Below are positions 28,892-36,399 of a stretch of DNA of 64,000 nucleotides, one piece after another. This DNA is from Bacteroidetes bacterium HGW-Bacteroidetes-7. GTDB lineage: Bacteria; Bacteroidota; Bacteroidia; Bacteroidales; UBA932. Every line of letters starts with the position of its first letter. The first letter of the stretch is position 1. The position numbers and the translations under genes are program-made. The stretch covers positions 1 to 64,000 of the forward strand of contig PHDA01000012.1 of NCBI GenBank assembly GCA_002842465.1, given 5' to 3'. The notes beneath the pieces are model-generated. The model made no database searches. It worked only from the letters and a program-made list of their open reading frames with translations, and was not told the origin of the DNA.

Positions 28892-29107
28892 ATATTATTA
28901 TTTATTTATTAGTGGAACAGTCCAAAATATAATAGATCATTACAAATTTAAGAATATCACAGTCAAATCAAATCATTACAAATATTTATTTGTACCTTTG
29001 CAAAACGGAATACTGTCATATACCTTACGTATCCCTGATTAATGTATATCAACAACATCCCAAACCGGTCAAAGTGATCGGTTTATATCATTTTATCATA
29101 TCACTTA
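28892..29107. promoter_or_regulatory. Intergenic region with promoter and long leader of cold-shock gene
   Basis: TACCTTTG (28993-29000) fits TAnnTTTG and would give a leader of about 100 bases before ATG 29108. The leader contains AAACCG...CGGTTT (around 29055-29080), able to form a small hairpin. Long structured leaders are common in cold-shock mRNAs; this is inference here. Confidence 0.45.
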
Positions 29108-29557
29108 ATGGCAAAATCACAAGTAACATTTAACAAAAGAGAAAAAGAGAAAAAAAGACTTAGTAAAAGAGTTGAAAAACAGCAGAAGAAAGAGGATAGA
29201 AAAGCAAACGCACCAGGTGGCGGATTTGATGACATGCTTGCTTTTGTAGACGAAAACGGAATGCTGACAAACACTCCTCCCGATCCAACAAAAAAACACA
29301 AAGTTGACGCAGCAAAAATTGAGGTCTCTATCCCAAGAAGAGAAAATGAAGAAAAAGATCCCATCAGAAAGGGACGTGTAGAATTTTTCAACACTTCAAA
29401 GGGGTTTGGTTTTATCAAAGAGATGGAAACCCAGGAGAAATTTTTTGTTCACGCAAACGGTCTTCTTGAAGATATTCAGGAGAACAACATGGTCACCTTT
29501 GAAGTAGAAAGAGGACAGAGAGGCATGAATGCATTTAATGTTAAGATTATTCGATAA
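29108..29557 (+). CDS. Cold-shock domain protein with basic N-terminal extension
   Basis: 149 residues. The C-terminal cold-shock domain (about 82-149) shows GRVEFFNTSKGFGFIKE (RNP1) and KFFVHANGL (RNP2). The first 80 residues are highly charged (KREKEKKRLSKRVEKQQKKEDRKAN) with a conserved segment GGFDDMLAFVDENGMLTNTPPDP typical of a Bacteroidota-specific Csp subfamily. RNA or ssDNA chaperone, probably with extra contacts from the basic tail. Confidence 0.88.
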   Translation: MAKSQVTFNKREKEKKRLSKRVEKQQKKEDRKANAPGGGFDDMLAFVDENGMLTNTPPDPTKKHKVDAAKIEVSIPRRENEEKDPIRKGRVEFFNTSKGFGFIKEMETQEKFFVHANGLLEDIQENNMVTFEVERGQRGMNAFNVKIIR

Positions 29558-29590
29558 TTCTTCATTAAATTCGTGAATTAATACATTCGT

Positions 29591-30103
29591 ATGATTCACA
29601 TCCGAAATGCATCTGAGGCTGATTTCCCCATTATACAGGAGATTGCCCAAAAGACATGGCCGAAAACCTTTTCAGCCATACTATCTCCCGGGCAAATTTC
29701 CTATATGCTGGATATTATGTACAGCACAGATTCACTAAAAAATCAAACAATCCATAACGGTCACAGATTTTTACTTGCATATCTGCAGGATAGCTCCCGC
29801 AGTGATGTTTGTATAGGCTATGCCTCATACCAACTTAACTATTCAGGAGAAAAAAGAACCAAAATTCATAAAATATATATACTCCCAAAACATCAGGGAG
29901 AGGGTGCCGGAGTCGCTTTAATTAATAGAATTGAAGAGATTGCCGTCTCTGTAGGAGATAATCATGTGTTTCTTAATGTTAATAAAAGCAACCCGGCAAT
30001 AAATTTTTACGAAAAGATTGGCTTTGGTATAATAAAGGAAGAGAAGATACCTATTGGAAACAGGTTTTTTATGGATGACTATGTAATGCAGAAGAGCATA
30101 TAA
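29591..30103 (+). CDS. GNAT-family N-acetyltransferase
   Basis: 170 residues with the GNAT fold: IRNASEADFPIIQEIAQKTW at the start, acetyl-CoA-binding ILPKHQGEGAGVALINRI (Q-x-x-G-x-A), and NVNKSNPAINFYEKIGFGII at the end. The acceptor is unknown. It may be N-terminal-, amine- or peptide-specific. Follows the cold-shock gene by 33 bases and may share its transcript. Confidence 0.87.
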   Translation: MIHIRNASEADFPIIQEIAQKTWPKTFSAILSPGQISYMLDIMYSTDSLKNQTIHNGHRFLLAYLQDSSRSDVCIGYASYQLNYSGEKRTKIHKIYILPKHQGEGAGVALINRIEEIAVSVGDNHVFLNVNKSNPAINFYEKIGFGIIKEEKIPIGNRFFMDDYVMQKSI

Positions 30104-30156
30104 AAAAACAAAACTCAATAATAATTCCTAACTTTATAAAAAGGGGTATAAAGACT

Positions 30157-30801
30157 ATGGATTATTCAAATTATCAAAAAACTTTTCTGTCAGCAATTCT
30201 TAGCGGAGACAGAAACAGCGGATCGGCCATTATCGCGGAGTTGTCAGACAGAGGCTGGTCAGTAGAAGATATTTACGAAAAAATAATACGGGATTCTCTA
30301 TATAAAGTTGGCGATTTATGGGAGAGCGGGCAGATTAGCGTTTCTTCGGAACATCTCGCAAGTGCAATTGTAGAATCTATCCTAAATGAGCAGTACTCGA
30401 GAATAATTTCACAAATCAAAATCAACAAAACCGTTGTTGCTGCTTCAGTAGAAAATGAGATTCATCAGATAGGGCTTAAAATGGTTGCCGATATTTTTGA
30501 AATGTCCGGGTTTAATGTTCACTATCTGGGAGCAAACAATCCATTGGAAGATCTTATTAACTTTATTGATACAGTCAAACCCAACATTCTTGCTGTTTCA
30601 GTAAGTATCAATTACCACATAAAATCACTTGAATTACTTATCGAGGAGATCAGGAAAAAGTATCCTGACCTTATAATTATCGCCGGTGGACAGGGCTTAA
30701 AAGATCAGTACAGAGAGTTTACTATAAAATATCCCAATGTTATGTATCTGCAGGATCTCTACGCACTCGAAGATTTCCTTGGAAAAACACAAATCTCATA
30801 A
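30157..30801 (+). CDS. Free-standing cobalamin-binding protein with CarH-type photoreceptor motif
   Basis: 214 residues without a DNA-binding domain. The N-terminal four-helix B12-capping domain (about 5-85) contains W55-x9-E65-H66 (LWESGQISVSSEH), the W-x9-EH signature of the CarH/LitR photoreceptors that packs against the upper adenosyl group of adenosylcobalamin. The Rossmann B12 domain (about 90-212) has E101-I-H103-Q-I-G106, the DxHxxG lower-ligand motif with E for D, then SVSINYH and AGGQG. The H66-to-H103 spacing (37) is close to that in Thermus CarH (35). The gene is 44 bases upstream of a soluble histidine kinase, which suggests that the two act together as light or B12 sensor and output. 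Confidence 0.8.
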   Translation: MDYSNYQKTFLSAILSGDRNSGSAIIAELSDRGWSVEDIYEKIIRDSLYKVGDLWESGQISVSSEHLASAIVESILNEQYSRIISQIKINKTVVAASVENEIHQIGLKMVADIFEMSGFNVHYLGANNPLEDLINFIDTVKPNILAVSVSINYHIKSLELLIEEIRKKYPDLIIIAGGQGLKDQYREFTIKYPNVMYLQDLYALEDFLGKTQIS

Positions 30802-30845
30802 ACACCCGTTAAAAAAAACAAATCTTCCATTTTTCCAAATATTGT

Positions 30846-32024
30846 ATGTTAACATTAAACAATAAAAATAAATTTGACCTCGTTAAGTGGAAAGATGAGA
30901 TAGAATCAAGTATTCTTGAAAGTAATACGCTTTGTATTGCTATTTTTAAAAAAGATGGGGAGCTCATATTTGCCAACAATGCCATCAGGGTACTCTTCAG
31001 AGATTTAAATCCTGCAAGCAGCTTACTTAACCCCACTTTTGAGACACTATCAAAAAACGATTGCCCATATTGCAATGTTTATAAAGGGTACATCACATTC
31101 GGTGATTACTCCACCGTTAACTCATCAATAATGGCAAATGTTTACAGAAAAGATGACTCTATACTTATTATTGGAGGAGTTGACTCCGAACAGTTGATGC
31201 AGCAGAATTTAATGATGCACAATCTTAATAGAGAGATTGGCAATCTTCAGAGACAATTGATTAAAGAGAAACGTGTGCTTGAAGAGACTCTTGTTAAGTT
31301 AAATAGCACAGTAAAAGAGCTTAACGAAGCCAATGCAACAAAAGACAAATTCTTCTCAATAATTGCACACGACCTTAAAAATCCATTCACCACCATTATT
31401 GGTTTCACAGATTATTTAAAGACAAACCTTAGAACATTGGAGCCTGCAGAGGTAGAGGAAATTGTCGAGATGATGAACACTTCTGGCAACACGACCTATA
31501 AGCTTCTGGAAGATCTCCTTCTTTGGTCAAGATCCCAATTAGGCAAAATCACATTTACACCAGAAAAGACAAGCCTGAGCGAGTTATGGAATGAGGTTGC
31601 CGGACCTATGCTAGTGCAGGCAGAAAATAAAAATATCACTATCAATTTCAATGATAAAGAGAGTTTAGAGTTGTATTGTGACAAAAACATGGTTAAGACA
31701 ATAATTCGTAACCTTGTCTCTAACGCAGTAAAATTCTCATATCGCAACAGCTCCATTGAGATAAATGCTTCTGCAAAAAATGATTTTTCTGAGATAAAAA
31801 TATCAGACAAAGGTGTGGGCATAAGCGCTGATACAATTGATTCTCTATGGATAATAGGATCTAACCATTCAACCTCAGGCACCGAAAGTGAAGAAGGCTC
31901 AGGCTTGGGACTGGTGCTTTGCAAAGAGTTTACCCAGGCAAACGGTGGTAGGATTTGGGTAGAGAGCGAGAAGGGCAAGGGAAGTGATTTTATTTTCACT
32001 CTGCCACTGTATAGTCGAACTTAA
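30846..32024 (+). CDS. Soluble PAS-like sensor histidine kinase
   Basis: 392 residues, no transmembrane segment. An N-terminal PAS-like region (about 24-112, IAIFKKDGELIFANNAIRVLF) leads through a coiled coil (about 115-165) to the HisKA domain with phospho-acceptor H175 (FFSIIAHDLKNPF) and a HATPase domain (N box NLVSNAVKFS, G1 DKGVGIS, G2 GSGLGLVL). The PAS-like region holds a cysteine pair, CPYC. No response regulator is adjacent, so the partner is elsewhere. Position right after the B12-binding protein suggests that protein provides the input. Confidence 0.85.
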   Translation: MLTLNNKNKFDLVKWKDEIESSILESNTLCIAIFKKDGELIFANNAIRVLFRDLNPASSLLNPTFETLSKNDCPYCNVYKGYITFGDYSTVNSSIMANVYRKDDSILIIGGVDSEQLMQQNLMMHNLNREIGNLQRQLIKEKRVLEETLVKLNSTVKELNEANATKDKFFSIIAHDLKNPFTTIIGFTDYLKTNLRTLEPAEVEEIVEMMNTSGNTTYKLLEDLLLWSRSQLGKITFTPEKTSLSELWNEVAGPMLVQAENKNITINFNDKESLELYCDKNMVKTIIRNLVSNAVKFSYRNSSIEINASAKNDFSEIKISDKGVGISADTIDSLWIIGSNHSTSGTESEEGSGLGLVLCKEFTQANGGRIWVESEKGKGSDFIFTLPLYSRT

Positions 32025-32049
32025 ATTATTATTGTTAATTATTAACTAT

Positions 32050-32523
32050 ATGAAAGCATTAATCAGATCAACAATTATCATCACTTTTTTGATGGTTACA
32101 CCAATACTTTTACTTGCACAGAACACAACTAATCAATATGATCAGAATCTTGCAAAAGAGCTGGGTGCCGACGAATATGGTATGAAAAACTATGTTTTGG
32201 TAATACTAAAAACAGGTAGTAACAAGACAACAGACAAAAAGGAGCTTGACTCATTGTTTGGAGGTCATATGAAAAATATGGGGGTGCTTTCTGAAACAGG
32301 TAAACTAATAGTTGCCGGACCTATTGGCAAAAATGGAAACAGTTACAGGGGCATTTTTATTTTAAATGTAAAAGACACGTTGGAGGCACGAAAAATACTA
32401 GCAACAGACCCTGCAGTTAATTCTAAAGTCCTTGAGGCTGATCTTTATAATTGGTATGGCTCTGCAGCTTTACCACTCTATCTGGAGCCACATAAGAAAA
32501 TCCAGAAATCAACCATCAGATAA
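32050..32523 (+). CDS. Exported YciI-like protein
   Basis: 157 residues: signal peptide (IRSTIIITFLMVTPILLLAQ) and one YciI/YCII domain with the pattern YVLVILKTGSN, HMKNMGVLSETGKLIVAGPIG and ILATDPAV. The YCII fold is a dimeric alpha-beta barrel; family members have unclear catalytic roles and export is unusual but common in Bacteroidota versions. ATG 32050 chosen as the signal-peptide start. Followed at once by a terminator. Confidence 0.8.
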   Translation: MKALIRSTIIITFLMVTPILLLAQNTTNQYDQNLAKELGADEYGMKNYVLVILKTGSNKTTDKKELDSLFGGHMKNMGVLSETGKLIVAGPIGKNGNSYRGIFILNVKDTLEARKILATDPAVNSKVLEADLYNWYGSAALPLYLEPHKKIQKSTIR

Positions 32524-32527
32524 AAAT

Positions 32528-32555
32528 AAAAAGCCCCGGTCTACCGGGGCTTTTT
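32528..32555. terminator. Bidirectional intrinsic terminator
   Basis: AAAAAGCCCCGGT - CT - ACCGGGGCTTTTT: a 13-bp perfect stem with a two-base loop as drawn, flanked by A and T runs. Serves the YciI gene (plus) and the cold-shock gene (minus). Confidence 0.9.
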
Positions 32556-32607
32556 AATAATCGGGTTTGAAAAGAGTTATATAATAGTACTTTTCAGTGA
32601 TAAATAG

Positions 32608-32799
32608 CTACGCTAATTTTACATTTACTGCATTTAAACCTCTTTTTCCTTGTTCCAGATCAAATGTTACTTGATCATTGTCTTTGATTTTCGACTTAAG
32701 ACCGGTTACGTGTACGAAGTAATCCGTTCCTGAATTTTCGTCTTTAATAAAACCAAAACCTTTGGTCTCATCGAAGAATTTTACTGTTCCTTTATTCAT
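32608..32799 (-). CDS. Cold-shock protein, CspA family
   Basis: 63-residue single cold-shock domain: GTVKFFDETKGFGFIKD (RNP1) and DYFVHVTGL (RNP2), then VTFDLEQGKRGLNAVNV. This is the short, typical Csp length, unlike the extended copy at 29.1 kb. RNA chaperone; nucleic-acid antitermination role is inferred from the family. Confidence 0.95.
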   Translation of the reverse strand: MNKGTVKFFDETKGFGFIKDENSGTDYFVHVTGLKSKIKDNDQVTFDLEQGKRGLNAVNVKLA

Positions 32800-32926
32800 G
32801 TTGTATTAAAAAAATGTGGCTCAAAGATATGCAATAATTACTTATAATTACAATTTATTTTTCTCCGAGCAGATTAAATTTATATATAGAGCTGATTTTA
32901 TGACAGATGTGTAATTAGTTAACTGC

Positions 32927-33988
32927 TTATTTTTTCATATCATCCATCAGAAGCTTGATGGTCTCTTTGACTGTCATAATCTTTTCAGCTTTATATGCAT
33001 TGCTACCGCAAAAAGCATACCCTCTGTTAAAATTACCACGGAAAGCGTTATATAAAGCAATTATTATGCAATATGGACTCTTGGTATAGTCACATGTTTT
33101 TATGCAGTGGAAATTACACTTTACAGGCTTTTCAAGACCACTTTTTACTCTGTCAAGAAAACGTGAACCTAAAGCTCTTCCAGGAAGACCAACAGGACTT
33201 TTAATAATCTCAATATCCTTTTCCTGAGCTTTTATATAACTGTTTTTGAATTCAACAGACGCATCACACTCCTCTGTTGTAACAAATATGGTTCCCATTT
33301 GTACCGCAGAGGCACCCATGTCCAATATTTTCTGTATTCCTTTTCCATCGTAAATTCCTCCTCCGGCAATTATTGGAATTTTGCGGTTATGGGTCTCTTC
33401 TAATGTCCTAATATGTGACACTAAATCAGGAAGTATCTCTTCAAGTGAAAAGTGCTCATCTGTAATCTGTTCTGATTTAAAGCCCAGGTGACCTCCGGCT
33501 TTTGGACCTTCCAGAACTATTGCATCAGGTACATAATTGTAATTCTTAATCCACTTCTCACAAATAATCATTGCAGCTCTTACCGAGGAAACAATAGGAA
33601 CAAGCTTTGTTGTACTGTCTTTTGTAAGAAACGATGGCAAATCCATTGGAAGGCCTGCGCCTGCAAAAATTATATCTGCTTTGGATGAAATTGCTGTTTT
33701 AACCATATCTGAGAAATTCGTCAGTGCAACCATAATGTTTACACCAATAACTCCCTTAGCTTTCTCTTTTGCTTTTTGTATCTCCTCTTTCAACCCCAGA
33801 ATTGAGGCTTCAAAAAAATCTTTGGACTTTTCTTTGTACAGCAATCCTATTCCTGCACACGAGATAACTCCCACTCCTCCTTCATTTGCTACGGCTGCGG
33901 CCAAACCCGAAAGTGATATACCCACACCCATTCCGCCTTGTACAATTGGTACCGAAAGGTTTAAATTTCCTATAGAAAAATTGTTCAT
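32927..33988 (-). CDS. Nitronate monooxygenase-like flavoprotein
   Basis: 353 residues with an FMN-binding TIM barrel: VPIVQGGMGVGISL at the N-terminus, GVIGVNIMVAL, LEGPKAGGHLGF with the putative catalytic histidine, IPIIAGGGIYDG and GASAVQMGTIFVTTEE. A C-terminal cysteine-rich part (CNFHCIKTC...YC...FCG) is shared by the anaerobe-type subgroup. Related to 2-nitropropane dioxygenase and FabK; substrate not determined, and an enoyl-ACP reductase role cannot be excluded. Confidence 0.85.
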   Translation of the reverse strand: MNNFSIGNLNLSVPIVQGGMGVGISLSGLAAAVANEGGVGVISCAGIGLLYKEKSKDFFEASILGLKEEIQKAKEKAKGVIGVNIMVALTNFSDMVKTAISSKADIIFAGAGLPMDLPSFLTKDSTTKLVPIVSSVRAAMIICEKWIKNYNYVPDAIVLEGPKAGGHLGFKSEQITDEHFSLEEILPDLVSHIRTLEETHNRKIPIIAGGGIYDGKGIQKILDMGASAVQMGTIFVTTEECDASVEFKNSYIKAQEKDIEIIKSPVGLPGRALGSRFLDRVKSGLEKPVKCNFHCIKTCDYTKSPYCIIIALYNAFRGNFNRGYAFCGSNAYKAEKIMTVKETIKLLMDDMKK

Positions 33989-34155: not shown

Positions 34156-36363
34156 TTAGTTAGGAAAAATAACAGGTTTGTAGTTAAGGGAAAAGTAGAA
34201 TTTACTCCCTTTGTCCGGTTCTGAATCAAGATTAATACCGCCTCCCATAAGTTCGGTATATGCCTTTACGATTGACAAACCAATTCCCGAGCCTTCGTAT
34301 GGCCTGGTTAAGCTGTGGTCTGCCTGAACAAAACGATAGAAAATAACCTCCTGACGCTCTTTTGGAATACCTATTCCGGTATCTTCAACGTAAAAATCAA
34401 TAACCTCCTCATTATGCTTGTAACCAATCTTAATATATCCGCTGTATGTATATTTGATTGAGTTCTTTATAAGATTATTAAGAATAGAAATTAATTTGTT
34501 TCTGTCAGTAATAACAAATGCCTGATTATTATCAAGCCCCTTCTCGGCGATAAGCTCTAAACCTCGCTCTGCAGCTTCAGAAGTATATTTACTTATAAAA
34601 TAGTCCAGGATTTCATTGAGATTAACATTATTCTCGTCTAGTTGTATCTGACCTGCCTCAATTTTCGAAACTTCAATAATATCGTTTAATGTAGATAGTA
34701 TTCTTCCACTACTTTTCTTGAGTTGCTCAATATAGGTTTGATGCTCATCAATATTAATGTCTTTAGATTGAATTAGTTCCAAAAAACCTGTAATAGAGTT
34801 CATTGGAGTTCTTATTTCATGGCTGAGGTTGGTCAGAAAAGAAGATTTTAATGTATCACTCTCCTCAGCTTTTTTCTTGGCAATAACAAGCTCCTCTTTA
34901 TTCTTCTTGTCCTGAGTAATCTCCCTGGCACTTCCCACAATACCAATCATCTTGCCTGACGAATCAAAAATGGGGGCTTTGTTTACATCCATGACAAAAT
35001 AACTGCCTCTCAGATAGCCCTCCTCTTCAAATCTTGCAGGCTCTCCAGTTTCAATAACTACCTGATCAGAATCACTGCAGGTTGCACCAAATGTATGCCA
35101 TTGTTTATTACCATGATTTGCAGCGAATTCTCTGTCAAAGAAATACTGATCAGTCTTACCGATTGGCTCAGAAATGTCTGATGCAAAGAGAAAATTATTA
35201 CAGATTGACTTATTGACAAAAATGTATCTTTTTTCAAGATCTTTTGCCCACAACATATCCTGCATATTATCGGACATCATTCTAAACAGGTTGTAAAGCT
35301 GCTGATAATTTTCATTACTCAGTTTTATCTGCCTCTCCTTTAGAATCTCGTTTGTAATATCTCTTATTATCACAAGATTGCTACCGGGGTAATCCTTAAA
35401 CTTTTTCTTTAATACAAGGTATGAGTTTACTCCCAACCTCCCGGGGACATCCAGGCGTGACTCAGATTGGTCACTCATTATTACGCTTACAAAACTTTTA
35501 ACCTTTACATAATCACAATCAATATTTATTCCTGTGATATTTTTTGATTCAACACCAAGAAAACCTCGGGCGGTATCGTTTATATCCTGAACTCTGTTAT
35601 TGGCATCAAGCACTATTATTCCCTCGTCCAATGTTTCAAAAAGGGTCTCTTTTGCAACGGGAATAAGATCAAGAAAACGGTTCCTGTAAATAGCAATAGT
35701 AAACAGAATACCGCTGAATATCATACTTTGAGGAACAAGGTCAAGTCCCGGAACAGGATTCTTTGCTGTTATGTAAAAGACGCTGGCAATCCATGGGCAC
35801 AAAGAGCCAACAAGAAGGTATAACCCTTGAGTTCGGAATGTTGACATTCTCTCGAAAATGAAGGTGAGCAGATATGCCGAAGTTATAAACAGCAAAATAT
35901 AGTTGTAAATCACATTCCCTATCCAGAATGCAATTCCGTGATAGTACTGTGTAAGGTTTGTTGAGGGAGAAATTGGAGCATAACCGGTCCATACAAGCTC
36001 GTGGTATTCATTAGTAAGAGTAAGAATAAAAGTGATAATCGGAACTATCCATAAAGCAACTAAATACTTCTTTTTAAGATACTTATCTTTACCTACAAAC
36101 CTTAAAACCAAAATCAGATAAAGAACAGGTGTTGTGAGAGCTCCAACATAGGCAACTTTTGACCAGAAAATTTTTAATTCAATTGTAGTTGCTGCTGTCT
36201 CAAATATTACAAAAAAAGACCACAACCCTGCAAATAGCATAAGCCATGCAAGTTCTGTAGTACCTCTTTCTCTCTTTCTATTCCAGGCTATGACAGCAAC
36301 AGCAAACGAAACCAGACTTGTAAACAGAAAGAGCAGAGAGAATGTTGTAAAAATGTAATTCAT
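34156..36363 (-). CDS. 7TM-sensor histidine kinase with PAS domains
   Basis: 735 residues. Seven hydrophobic segments at about 1-225 form the N-terminal 7TM histidine-kinase sensor domain. Two PAS regions follow (about 235-335 and 360-480; the second has WAKDLEKRYIFVNKSICN and a PAC-like end), then HisKA with H515 (FLTNLSHEIRTPMNSI) and HATPase with NLIKNSIKYTYSG, DTGIGIPKE and GSGIGLSIV. No receiver domain. ATG 36363 is used; an upstream TTG at 36378 is possible. Signal is unknown. Confidence 0.88.
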   Translation of the reverse strand: MNYIFTTFSLLFLFTSLVSFAVAVIAWNRKRERGTTELAWLMLFAGLWSFFVIFETAATTIELKIFWSKVAYVGALTTPVLYLILVLRFVGKDKYLKKKYLVALWIVPIITFILTLTNEYHELVWTGYAPISPSTNLTQYYHGIAFWIGNVIYNYILLFITSAYLLTFIFERMSTFRTQGLYLLVGSLCPWIASVFYITAKNPVPGLDLVPQSMIFSGILFTIAIYRNRFLDLIPVAKETLFETLDEGIIVLDANNRVQDINDTARGFLGVESKNITGINIDCDYVKVKSFVSVIMSDQSESRLDVPGRLGVNSYLVLKKKFKDYPGSNLVIIRDITNEILKERQIKLSNENYQQLYNLFRMMSDNMQDMLWAKDLEKRYIFVNKSICNNFLFASDISEPIGKTDQYFFDREFAANHGNKQWHTFGATCSDSDQVVIETGEPARFEEEGYLRGSYFVMDVNKAPIFDSSGKMIGIVGSAREITQDKKNKEELVIAKKKAEESDTLKSSFLTNLSHEIRTPMNSITGFLELIQSKDINIDEHQTYIEQLKKSSGRILSTLNDIIEVSKIEAGQIQLDENNVNLNEILDYFISKYTSEAAERGLELIAEKGLDNNQAFVITDRNKLISILNNLIKNSIKYTYSGYIKIGYKHNEEVIDFYVEDTGIGIPKERQEVIFYRFVQADHSLTRPYEGSGIGLSIVKAYTELMGGGINLDSEPDKGSKFYFSLNYKPVIFPN

Positions 36364-36399
36364 CTCTTTTATAAACAACTTAAAACTAAAAAGAGTTCA

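Follow-up and report, generated by a model that had tools for sequence, protein, structure and literature searches.

The window analysed here, 64,000 nucleotides of contig PHDA01000012.1 from Bacteroidetes bacterium HGW-Bacteroidetes-7, encodes a stand-alone cobalamin (B12)-binding protein directly followed by a soluble histidine kinase, and we consider that the two proteins probably form a light-responsive signalling module. The genome is Bacteroidales-like, comprises 2.39 Mb on 42 contigs and is 92% complete. The original prediction, made from the letters alone, had described a CarH-type photoreceptor domain without its MerR DNA-binding domain, encoded next to a kinase without membrane segment, and had read the pair as a two-component version of CarH. 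Both open reading frames (ORFs) are present as described, 44 bases apart on the + strand, and the predicted motifs W55, E65, H66 and H103 can be read in the sequence:

30157..30801, + strand: stand-alone cobalamin-binding protein, 214 amino acids (aa) (ORF, Pfam, motifs)
30319..30354, + strand: W-x9-EH capping motif WESGQISVSSEH, residues 55-66 (sequence)
30457..30474, + strand: lower-ligand motif E-x-H-x-x-G (EIHQIG), residues 101-106 (sequence, alignment)
30846..32024, + strand: soluble sensor histidine kinase, 392 aa (ORF, Pfam, AlphaFold model)

The 214-aa protein combines a helical cap (PF02607, B12-binding_2, residues 8-77, E 4.8e-14) with a Rossmann fold (PF02310, B12-binding, residues 92-189, E 2.6e-19); as predicted, no DNA-binding domain of the helix-turn-helix or MerR type, nor any other further family, exceeds its Pfam cut-off. 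The upper cap residues W55, E65 and H66 are accompanied by the lower ligand E101-x-H103-x-x-G106 and by G125-x-x-x-P129. We examined their conservation in a main set of 73 homologous B12 proteins with their loci. This set leaves out (i) L037, whose contig is shared with L080, (ii) L023/G019, on a truncated contig with W-x9-EH present, (iii) L064, more distant with W-x9-EH present, and (iv) L065, L066 and matches without a returned locus; the short copies L004, L007-L022, L024 and L025 were replaced by longer stretches, L096-L124 are covered by only about 1.5 kb per side, and L044 and L056 stop at a contig end. W-x9-EH, G-x-x-W (GDLW in the window protein) and the ligand motif [ED]-x-H-x-x-G occur in all 73 homologues, and the six residues W55, E65, H66, E101, H103 and G106 are invariant in the 34 that were aligned. 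Loss of W, E or H in close homologues, which the original prediction had named as evidence against itself, is thus not observed. GxxxP (GANNP in the window) is found in 70 of 73 homologues, 66 by script and four by eye, and the other three have S or A in place of P. As a control, W-x9-EH is missing from 11 weaker cobalamin matches (L001, L003, L027-L030, L032, L034-L036 and L066), some of which are cut by the stretch; the fragment L065 is left aside, and the motif is present in three MerR-type matches (L026, L031, L033) and in the distant L064.

Among solved structures, the B12 protein matches CtMerR best (8jbs, E 5e-15), followed by the photocobilins 8j2w, 8j2x and 8j2y (E 4e-13 to 2e-12) and by methionine synthase 8g3h and CarH 5c8a, which tie at E 6e-11. 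The top NCBIfam model, CarH, scores 64.7 bits where 400 are required, and this score together with the missing DNA-binding domain led us to reject membership of CarH itself. The roles of the capping residues W, E and H are described in PMC11796333 and PMC10979010, and the published light signature consists of GxxW, EH, GxxH and GxxxP (PMC11796333). Like CarH and CtMerR as treated there, the window protein has a cobalamin domain with GxxW, EH, ExH and GxxxP; unlike them, it has no DNA-binding domain, carries Asn for the GxxH glycine, has no equivalent of H132 of TtCarH and would presumably feed a phosphorelay instead of binding DNA. The likeness to CarH stands for the capping residues; the nearest architecture is the photocobilin, a B12 domain with a phycobiliprotein-like globin, and CarH mechanics are doubtful in detail with Glu at the H132 position.

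The kinase comprises a HisKA domain (166-231) with the phospho-acceptor H175, invariant in all 23 aligned kinases, and a HATPase_c domain (279-389), both identified with Pfam. A membrane segment was not found, the highest 19-residue Kyte-Doolittle mean being 0.89. The PAS-like region of the original prediction has no Pfam match, though the AlphaFold model (mean pLDDT 84.6, 23 sequences) predicts a PAS-like alpha/beta arrangement at about residues 29-111, followed by a long 80-residue helix (114-194) that would hold both the motif LN-x7-R-x-L (L127-L138) and H175 ahead of the catalytic domain; the top structural match of the model is HK853. The signal-helix motif LN-x7-R-x-[LFI] is present in 41 of 46 paired kinases and in 2 of 32 other kinases of the same stretches. 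These 32 include L054, a partner whose gene overlaps the B12 gene and which carries the motif, and L088, a fragment of the broken G024 partner without it; the five misses on the paired side include L062 at 6049, a kinase other than the adjacent one, and L096, which the stretch truncates. N128, R136, L138 and H175 are invariant across the 23 aligned kinases, and much of the catalytic half varies. For the six window proteins scanned, Pfam detects no response regulator; genes for receiver-domain proteins follow downstream in L046, in L063 and, by reading the sequence, in L059.

The pairing recurs well beyond the window. A kinase with the partner-type N-terminus lies within 2.5 kb of the B12 gene at 48 of the 73 loci; 26 of these also have a stand-alone globin gene, 14, the window included, have no globin and 8 have a globin fused to the B12 domain. 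One further locus combines a fused globin with a kinase core only. At the remaining 24 loci no kinase was found: 22 are without globin, one has a globin (L044, contig end) and one a fused globin. The 22 loci with neither partner consist of 21 members of one clade (support 100/99) and L056 (contig end). For co-occurrence we used 60 genomes, the window genome included, and a length-limited list of kinase matches. In 16 genomes the listed match begins no later than query residue 15, and each of them also has a B12 orthologue. In G047 and G058 the fused form occurs alongside a kinase that is more distant. The congener G004 (99% complete) lacks the B12 gene and retains a kinase fragment interrupted by three in-frame stops (G004:C17:4523-5005, L073), a decayed copy of the system.

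Relatives of the B12 protein span Bacteroidota, Thermodesulfobacteriota, Spirochaetota, Balneolota, Riflebacteria, Hydrogenedentes, Ignavibacteriota and one archaeal bin, and 47 of 395 sampled genomes of the window's phylum have a match at E 1e-30 or better. The two-component reading of the original prediction gains from this recurrence as far as a stand-alone CarH/photocobilin-type domain tied to a soluble kinase is concerned, although CarH is not the nearest architecture. In a maximum-likelihood tree the globin-less rows of the window's group form a 16-row branch with five globin-bearing congeners (support 98/83), and the other kinase-paired groups around this branch mostly carry a globin; the MerR outgroup branch is long, and row L062, only 21% filled, has no meaningful placement.

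The third gene found in many relatives encodes about 144-163 aa and lies between the B12 and kinase genes, upstream (L046) or after the kinase (L054, L055, L057, L058 and L104). As a stand-alone gene it is near the B12 gene at 27 of 73 loci, 26 of them with the kinase; in 10 of the 73 homologues the B12 domain carries an N-terminally fused globin. The 15-row alignment of stand-alone proteins contains 19 invariant columns. Only one of the 15 reaches the Pfam Globin cut-off (L055, 23.2 bits against 22), NCBIfam returns chance-level matches for them, and a PDB sequence search with their profile gives nothing up to E 1. For the model of the L038 protein (pLDDT 92.9), the first Foldseek row and most of the top rows are allophycocyanin or phycobilisome chains and smURFP (probability up to 1.00, TM 0.61-0.67, E 0.08 and above); heme globins occupy ranks 2 and 6, and no photocobilin is among the 50 rows listed. 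The fused domains (about 140 aa) match PF00502 Phycobilisome in four of seven cases, and their seven-row profile reaches phycobiliproteins at E 1e-6 and the photocobilins 8j2w, 8j2x and 8j2y at E 1.4e-4 to 1.7e-4. An hhalign comparison connects stand-alone with fused proteins (E 1.4e-4, probability 52%), as does a single direct cross-match, L096, at E 8e-4. Based on the fold, the single Pfam Globin match in 15 and this profile link, we assign the third protein with good but not complete confidence as a predicted phycobiliprotein- or photoglobin-type globin. Tracing positions by hand through the alignments, with a chain offset of 6 read from H108, places the bilin contact Asp270 of SasPcob at Asn60, invariant in 15 of 15 stand-alone globins beside the invariant Asp59, and Trp296 at Trp86, likewise invariant in all 15. 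In AbPcob, His at the Asp270 position accompanies weaker biliverdin binding (PMC10979010).

We searched for a pigment supply with the heme oxygenase family PF01126, which was absent from all 60 relatives and from 20 further genomes and present in 3 of 14 others. By class, none of the 26 globin-plus-kinase genomes (5+17+4) has a match, a count in which many bins are incomplete and other heme-degrading families were not searched; it occurs in 1 of 10 with fused globin (L061), in 1 of 14 with kinase and without globin (L059), and in L056. It was not found in L044, and the search did not take the 21 genomes of solitary B12 proteins as a set. The globin may therefore carry no bilin, and its pigment, if any, is putative: another tetrapyrrole, a scavenged bilin or no pigment at all are the options. 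At L059, from a Hydrogenedentes bin, a heme oxygenase (L059:4473-5804, PF01126, E 3.5e-21) directly follows the B12-kinase pair, and the next protein looks, by reading, like a receiver-PAS combination; among the neighbours scanned, which are not all neighbours, no other locus had a bilin-making enzyme beside the pair. A globin domain suspected by eye in the C-terminal half of this heme oxygenase was unsupported by analysis.

A 15-row profile search detects no globin in the window genome (G000), which is 92% complete, as noted above. Congeners G002, G008, G009, G016 and G017 have a globin between the B12 and kinase genes in an otherwise identical gene order. For the 16-row branch, parsimony finds two losses and one loss plus one regain equally short; we prefer loss, because the globin occupies the same place as in other phyla, and the window lineage, which lacks the globin, has probably lost it. 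We favour reading the window pair as one branch, without globin, of a 'split photocobilin' two-component module. More tentatively, we propose that such a three-protein system is widespread, mostly in anaerobes, and combines an adenosylcobalamin (AdoCbl) photosensor, a globin independent of biliverdin made by heme oxygenase and a signal-helix kinase, the window lineage representing a reduced B12-kinase form; this broader proposal we hold with less than even confidence.

For the light-responsive pair we envisage the following mechanism. In the stand-alone B12 protein, H103 would ligate AdoCbl in the base-off/His-on form, and W55 together with E65/H66 would hold the adenosyl group across a head-to-tail dimer in the dark, as extrapolated from the CarH, CtMerR and photocobilin structures. 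Light would break the Co-C bond. The resulting state is probably of the CtMerR/photocobilin kind and not bis-His, because E56 replaces H132 of TtCarH. The B12 protein, altered in shape or partner contact, would then act in trans on the neighbouring soluble kinase. Its likeliest targets there are the PAS domain and the signal helix with the conserved motif LN-x7-R-x-L, and kinase autophosphorylation would shift in one direction or the other; the response regulator is probably encoded elsewhere, and in many relatives the phycobiliprotein-like globin would be a third partner. Action on a separate protein has precedent, in that AbPcob and holo SasPcob modulate, depending on light, how active a separate cyclase domain is (PMC10979010). 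Light as the signal is suggested by the conserved residues and by homology, to which sensing of the B12 state or of redox is the alternative. With respect to cofactor supply, the window genome has a PduO-type adenosyltransferase, and AdoCbl can therefore probably be made.

Several observations weigh against this mechanism. (i) The published GxxH reads NEIH in the window protein, and its glycine is found in only 10 of 73 homologues. In CtMerR it is the main chain of this glycine that touches the corrin (PMC11796333), so that binding could survive the loss; strict mining with the published signature would probably overlook most of the group, the glycine being missing from 63 of 73. (ii) The bis-His residue is E56 in the window and, across the 73 homologues, E in 60, Q in 9, D in 2 and L and F in one each. 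The light-responsive CtMerR, SasPcob and AbDPcob have Arg, Gln and Tyr there (PMC11796333), and bis-His ligation is therefore not required for a light response. (iii) A BtuR-type adenosyltransferase was not found in the window genome. (iv) The relatives include sulfate reducers, sediment bins and an archaeon, which suggests that their habitats are anoxic and may be dark; effective monomerisation of TtCarH reportedly depends on oxygen (PMC11796333). (v) B12 protein and kinase can part: the 21-homologue clade has no kinase in the fetched stretch, and G024 has an intact B12 gene and a kinase in two pieces. In G044, without close B12 gene, the listed kinase aligns from residue 22 at 35% identity.

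The main rival to the light-responsive pair holds that the B12 protein reports AdoCbl availability or the cobalamin redox state to the kinase in the dark, light not being the natural signal. It draws on the anoxic sediments suggested for many members, on the missing GxxH glycine and bis-His residue, on the heme oxygenase missing from the 26 globin-plus-kinase genomes and on Asn at the bilin-contact position. However, the adenosyl-capping W and EH are invariant and belong to the light signature (PMC11796333, PMC10979010), the association with a phycobiliprotein-like globin parallels the photocobilins, and photolyase, which 14 of the 16 genomes sampled from the genus have, the window genome among them, indicates that these bacteria probably meet light. 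We regard this rival as unlikely, if the most serious. Photolyase does not track the B12 gene, as G003, G005, G006 and G010 have it and no close B12 orthologue, and an SQS/PSY-family protein in the window genome is alone no proof of carotenoids.

Light might also be sensed by the B12 protein with its main output elsewhere, while the kinase reads a PAS ligand of its own and merely shares the operon. The kinase-less clade and the broken kinase of G024 would fit this arrangement, as would the fact that contact between the two proteins is deduced. On the other hand, in several phyla the partner-type N-terminus and signal helix accompany the B12 gene, the catalytic half being variable, and the kinase of G004 decayed where the B12 gene was lost, and we judge a separate output to be quite improbable. 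A methyltransferase-type corrinoid protein (MtaC/MtbC-like) beside an unrelated kinase shares the fold, matches NCBIfam corrinoid methyltransferase and methionine synthase models at E 1e-13 to 1e-8 and has methionine synthase chains scoring like CarH among solved structures, but we disfavour it as very improbable, since CarH is the best model and the corrinoid models all fall far below their cut-offs, W-x9-EH is missing from the 11 control proteins, no methyltransferase is among the six window proteins scanned and the kinase pairing recurs across loci.

A non-heme globin family named photoglobin by Schneider et al. in 2022 is reportedly associated with B12-binding domains in signal transduction, and that paper may describe related operons, for which reason we make no claim to priority; an operon of B12 photosensor and histidine kinase is not named in the accessible part of the open-licence literature searched. 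This includes the accessible text of PMC10151467, PMC9144470 and PMC8156234, and 'kinase' is absent from the main text of PMC11796333. The closest known systems are the photocobilins SasPcob and AbDPcob (PMC10979010), which likewise have a cobalamin domain with a W/EH cap and an E/DxH ligand, act on a separate enzyme via protein contact, and show the N-terminal globin-B12 fusion seen in 10 of our 73 homologues. In contrast to them, the window protein has no fused globin and its genome no globin match, the globin is a separate protein in 26 kinase-bearing relatives, and the output is a histidine kinase, a term absent from the main text of PMC10979010. AerR-CrtJ (PMC9144470) similarly comprises a stand-alone cobalamin protein acting in trans on a separate regulator, but the partner of AerR is a transcription factor, and the upper ligand of the light state in LAerR is His10 of an N-terminal extension. 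The 'pre-2' cluster of bilin reductase, B12-binding protein and BBAG-2 globin (PMC10151467) resembles our loci in placing a stand-alone B12 protein beside a stand-alone bilin-binding globin; it differs by its bilin reductase, by naming no kinase in the text available and by a heme oxygenase in the cluster or genome, compared with none in the 26 genomes here.

In the accessible literature, B12 photoreception has so far been shown for MerR-type regulators, AerR and a cyclase fusion. If the proposed pairing is true, it would bring phosphorelay within the reach of B12 photoreception in organisms such as Bacteroidales, sulfate reducers and spirochaetes, many of which are not thought of as light-responsive. 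That some natural pairs have the globin and others lack it, within one genus and one gene order, makes its role directly testable, and the missing heme oxygenase raises the question what this globin binds, if anything.

Three further features flank the pair:

29591..30103, + strand: GNAT acetyltransferase, 53 bases upstream of the B12 gene
32044..32523, + strand: small protein, weakly matching YCII (22.6 bits against a cut-off of 24)
32527..32556, no strand assigned: palindromic terminator-like hairpin, listed for the - strand (terminator scan)

The top NCBIfam match of the GNAT protein is the PaiA model, far below cut-off, and its gene keeps its position in relatives with identical gene order; a homologue of the YCII-like protein lies 3' of the kinase or 5' of the B12 gene in several congeners. 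Both are candidate neighbours, and their membership of the system is putative. The hairpin is a possible end of the transcription unit, in a region (29000-33000) with 7 terminator-like sites against 2.3 expected; a promoter scan at the locus was uninformative (15 found, 13.1 expected).

At other loci we observed additional companions of the B12 gene. In the solitary clade (L099-L119 except L104, plus L121), which keeps W-x9-EH and has neither kinase nor globin in the fetched stretch, 7 of 12 members inspected are flanked by PAP2-like membrane and amylase-like secreted proteins, labels assigned by reading. The gene before the B12 gene in L017 (L017:182-1357) encodes a hemerythrin-PAS protein (PF01814, PF13596), a possible oxygen-sensing companion; the upstream gene of L018 reads like it, and those of L019-L021 are alike by size only. 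L060, a Methanomethylophilaceae bin, contains a globin-B12 fusion with kinase-like neighbours, for which transfer or bin contamination is possible. In L038, L039, L048 and L053 the globin gene is followed by two kinases in tandem, the second being about 400 aa long and without the signal-helix motif. The gene order in close congeners is large secreted peptidase-like protein, cold-shock protein, GNAT, B12 protein, kinase, nitropropane-dioxygenase-like protein and 7TM kinase, where the peptidase-like and nitropropane-dioxygenase-like labels were assigned by reading the sequence. In the window, the 7TM kinase is a 740-aa histidine kinase near the pair (34156-36378, - strand) that contains PAS domains and whose input region is of the 7TM type (PF16927), and its homologue is found at the equivalent place in close congeners.

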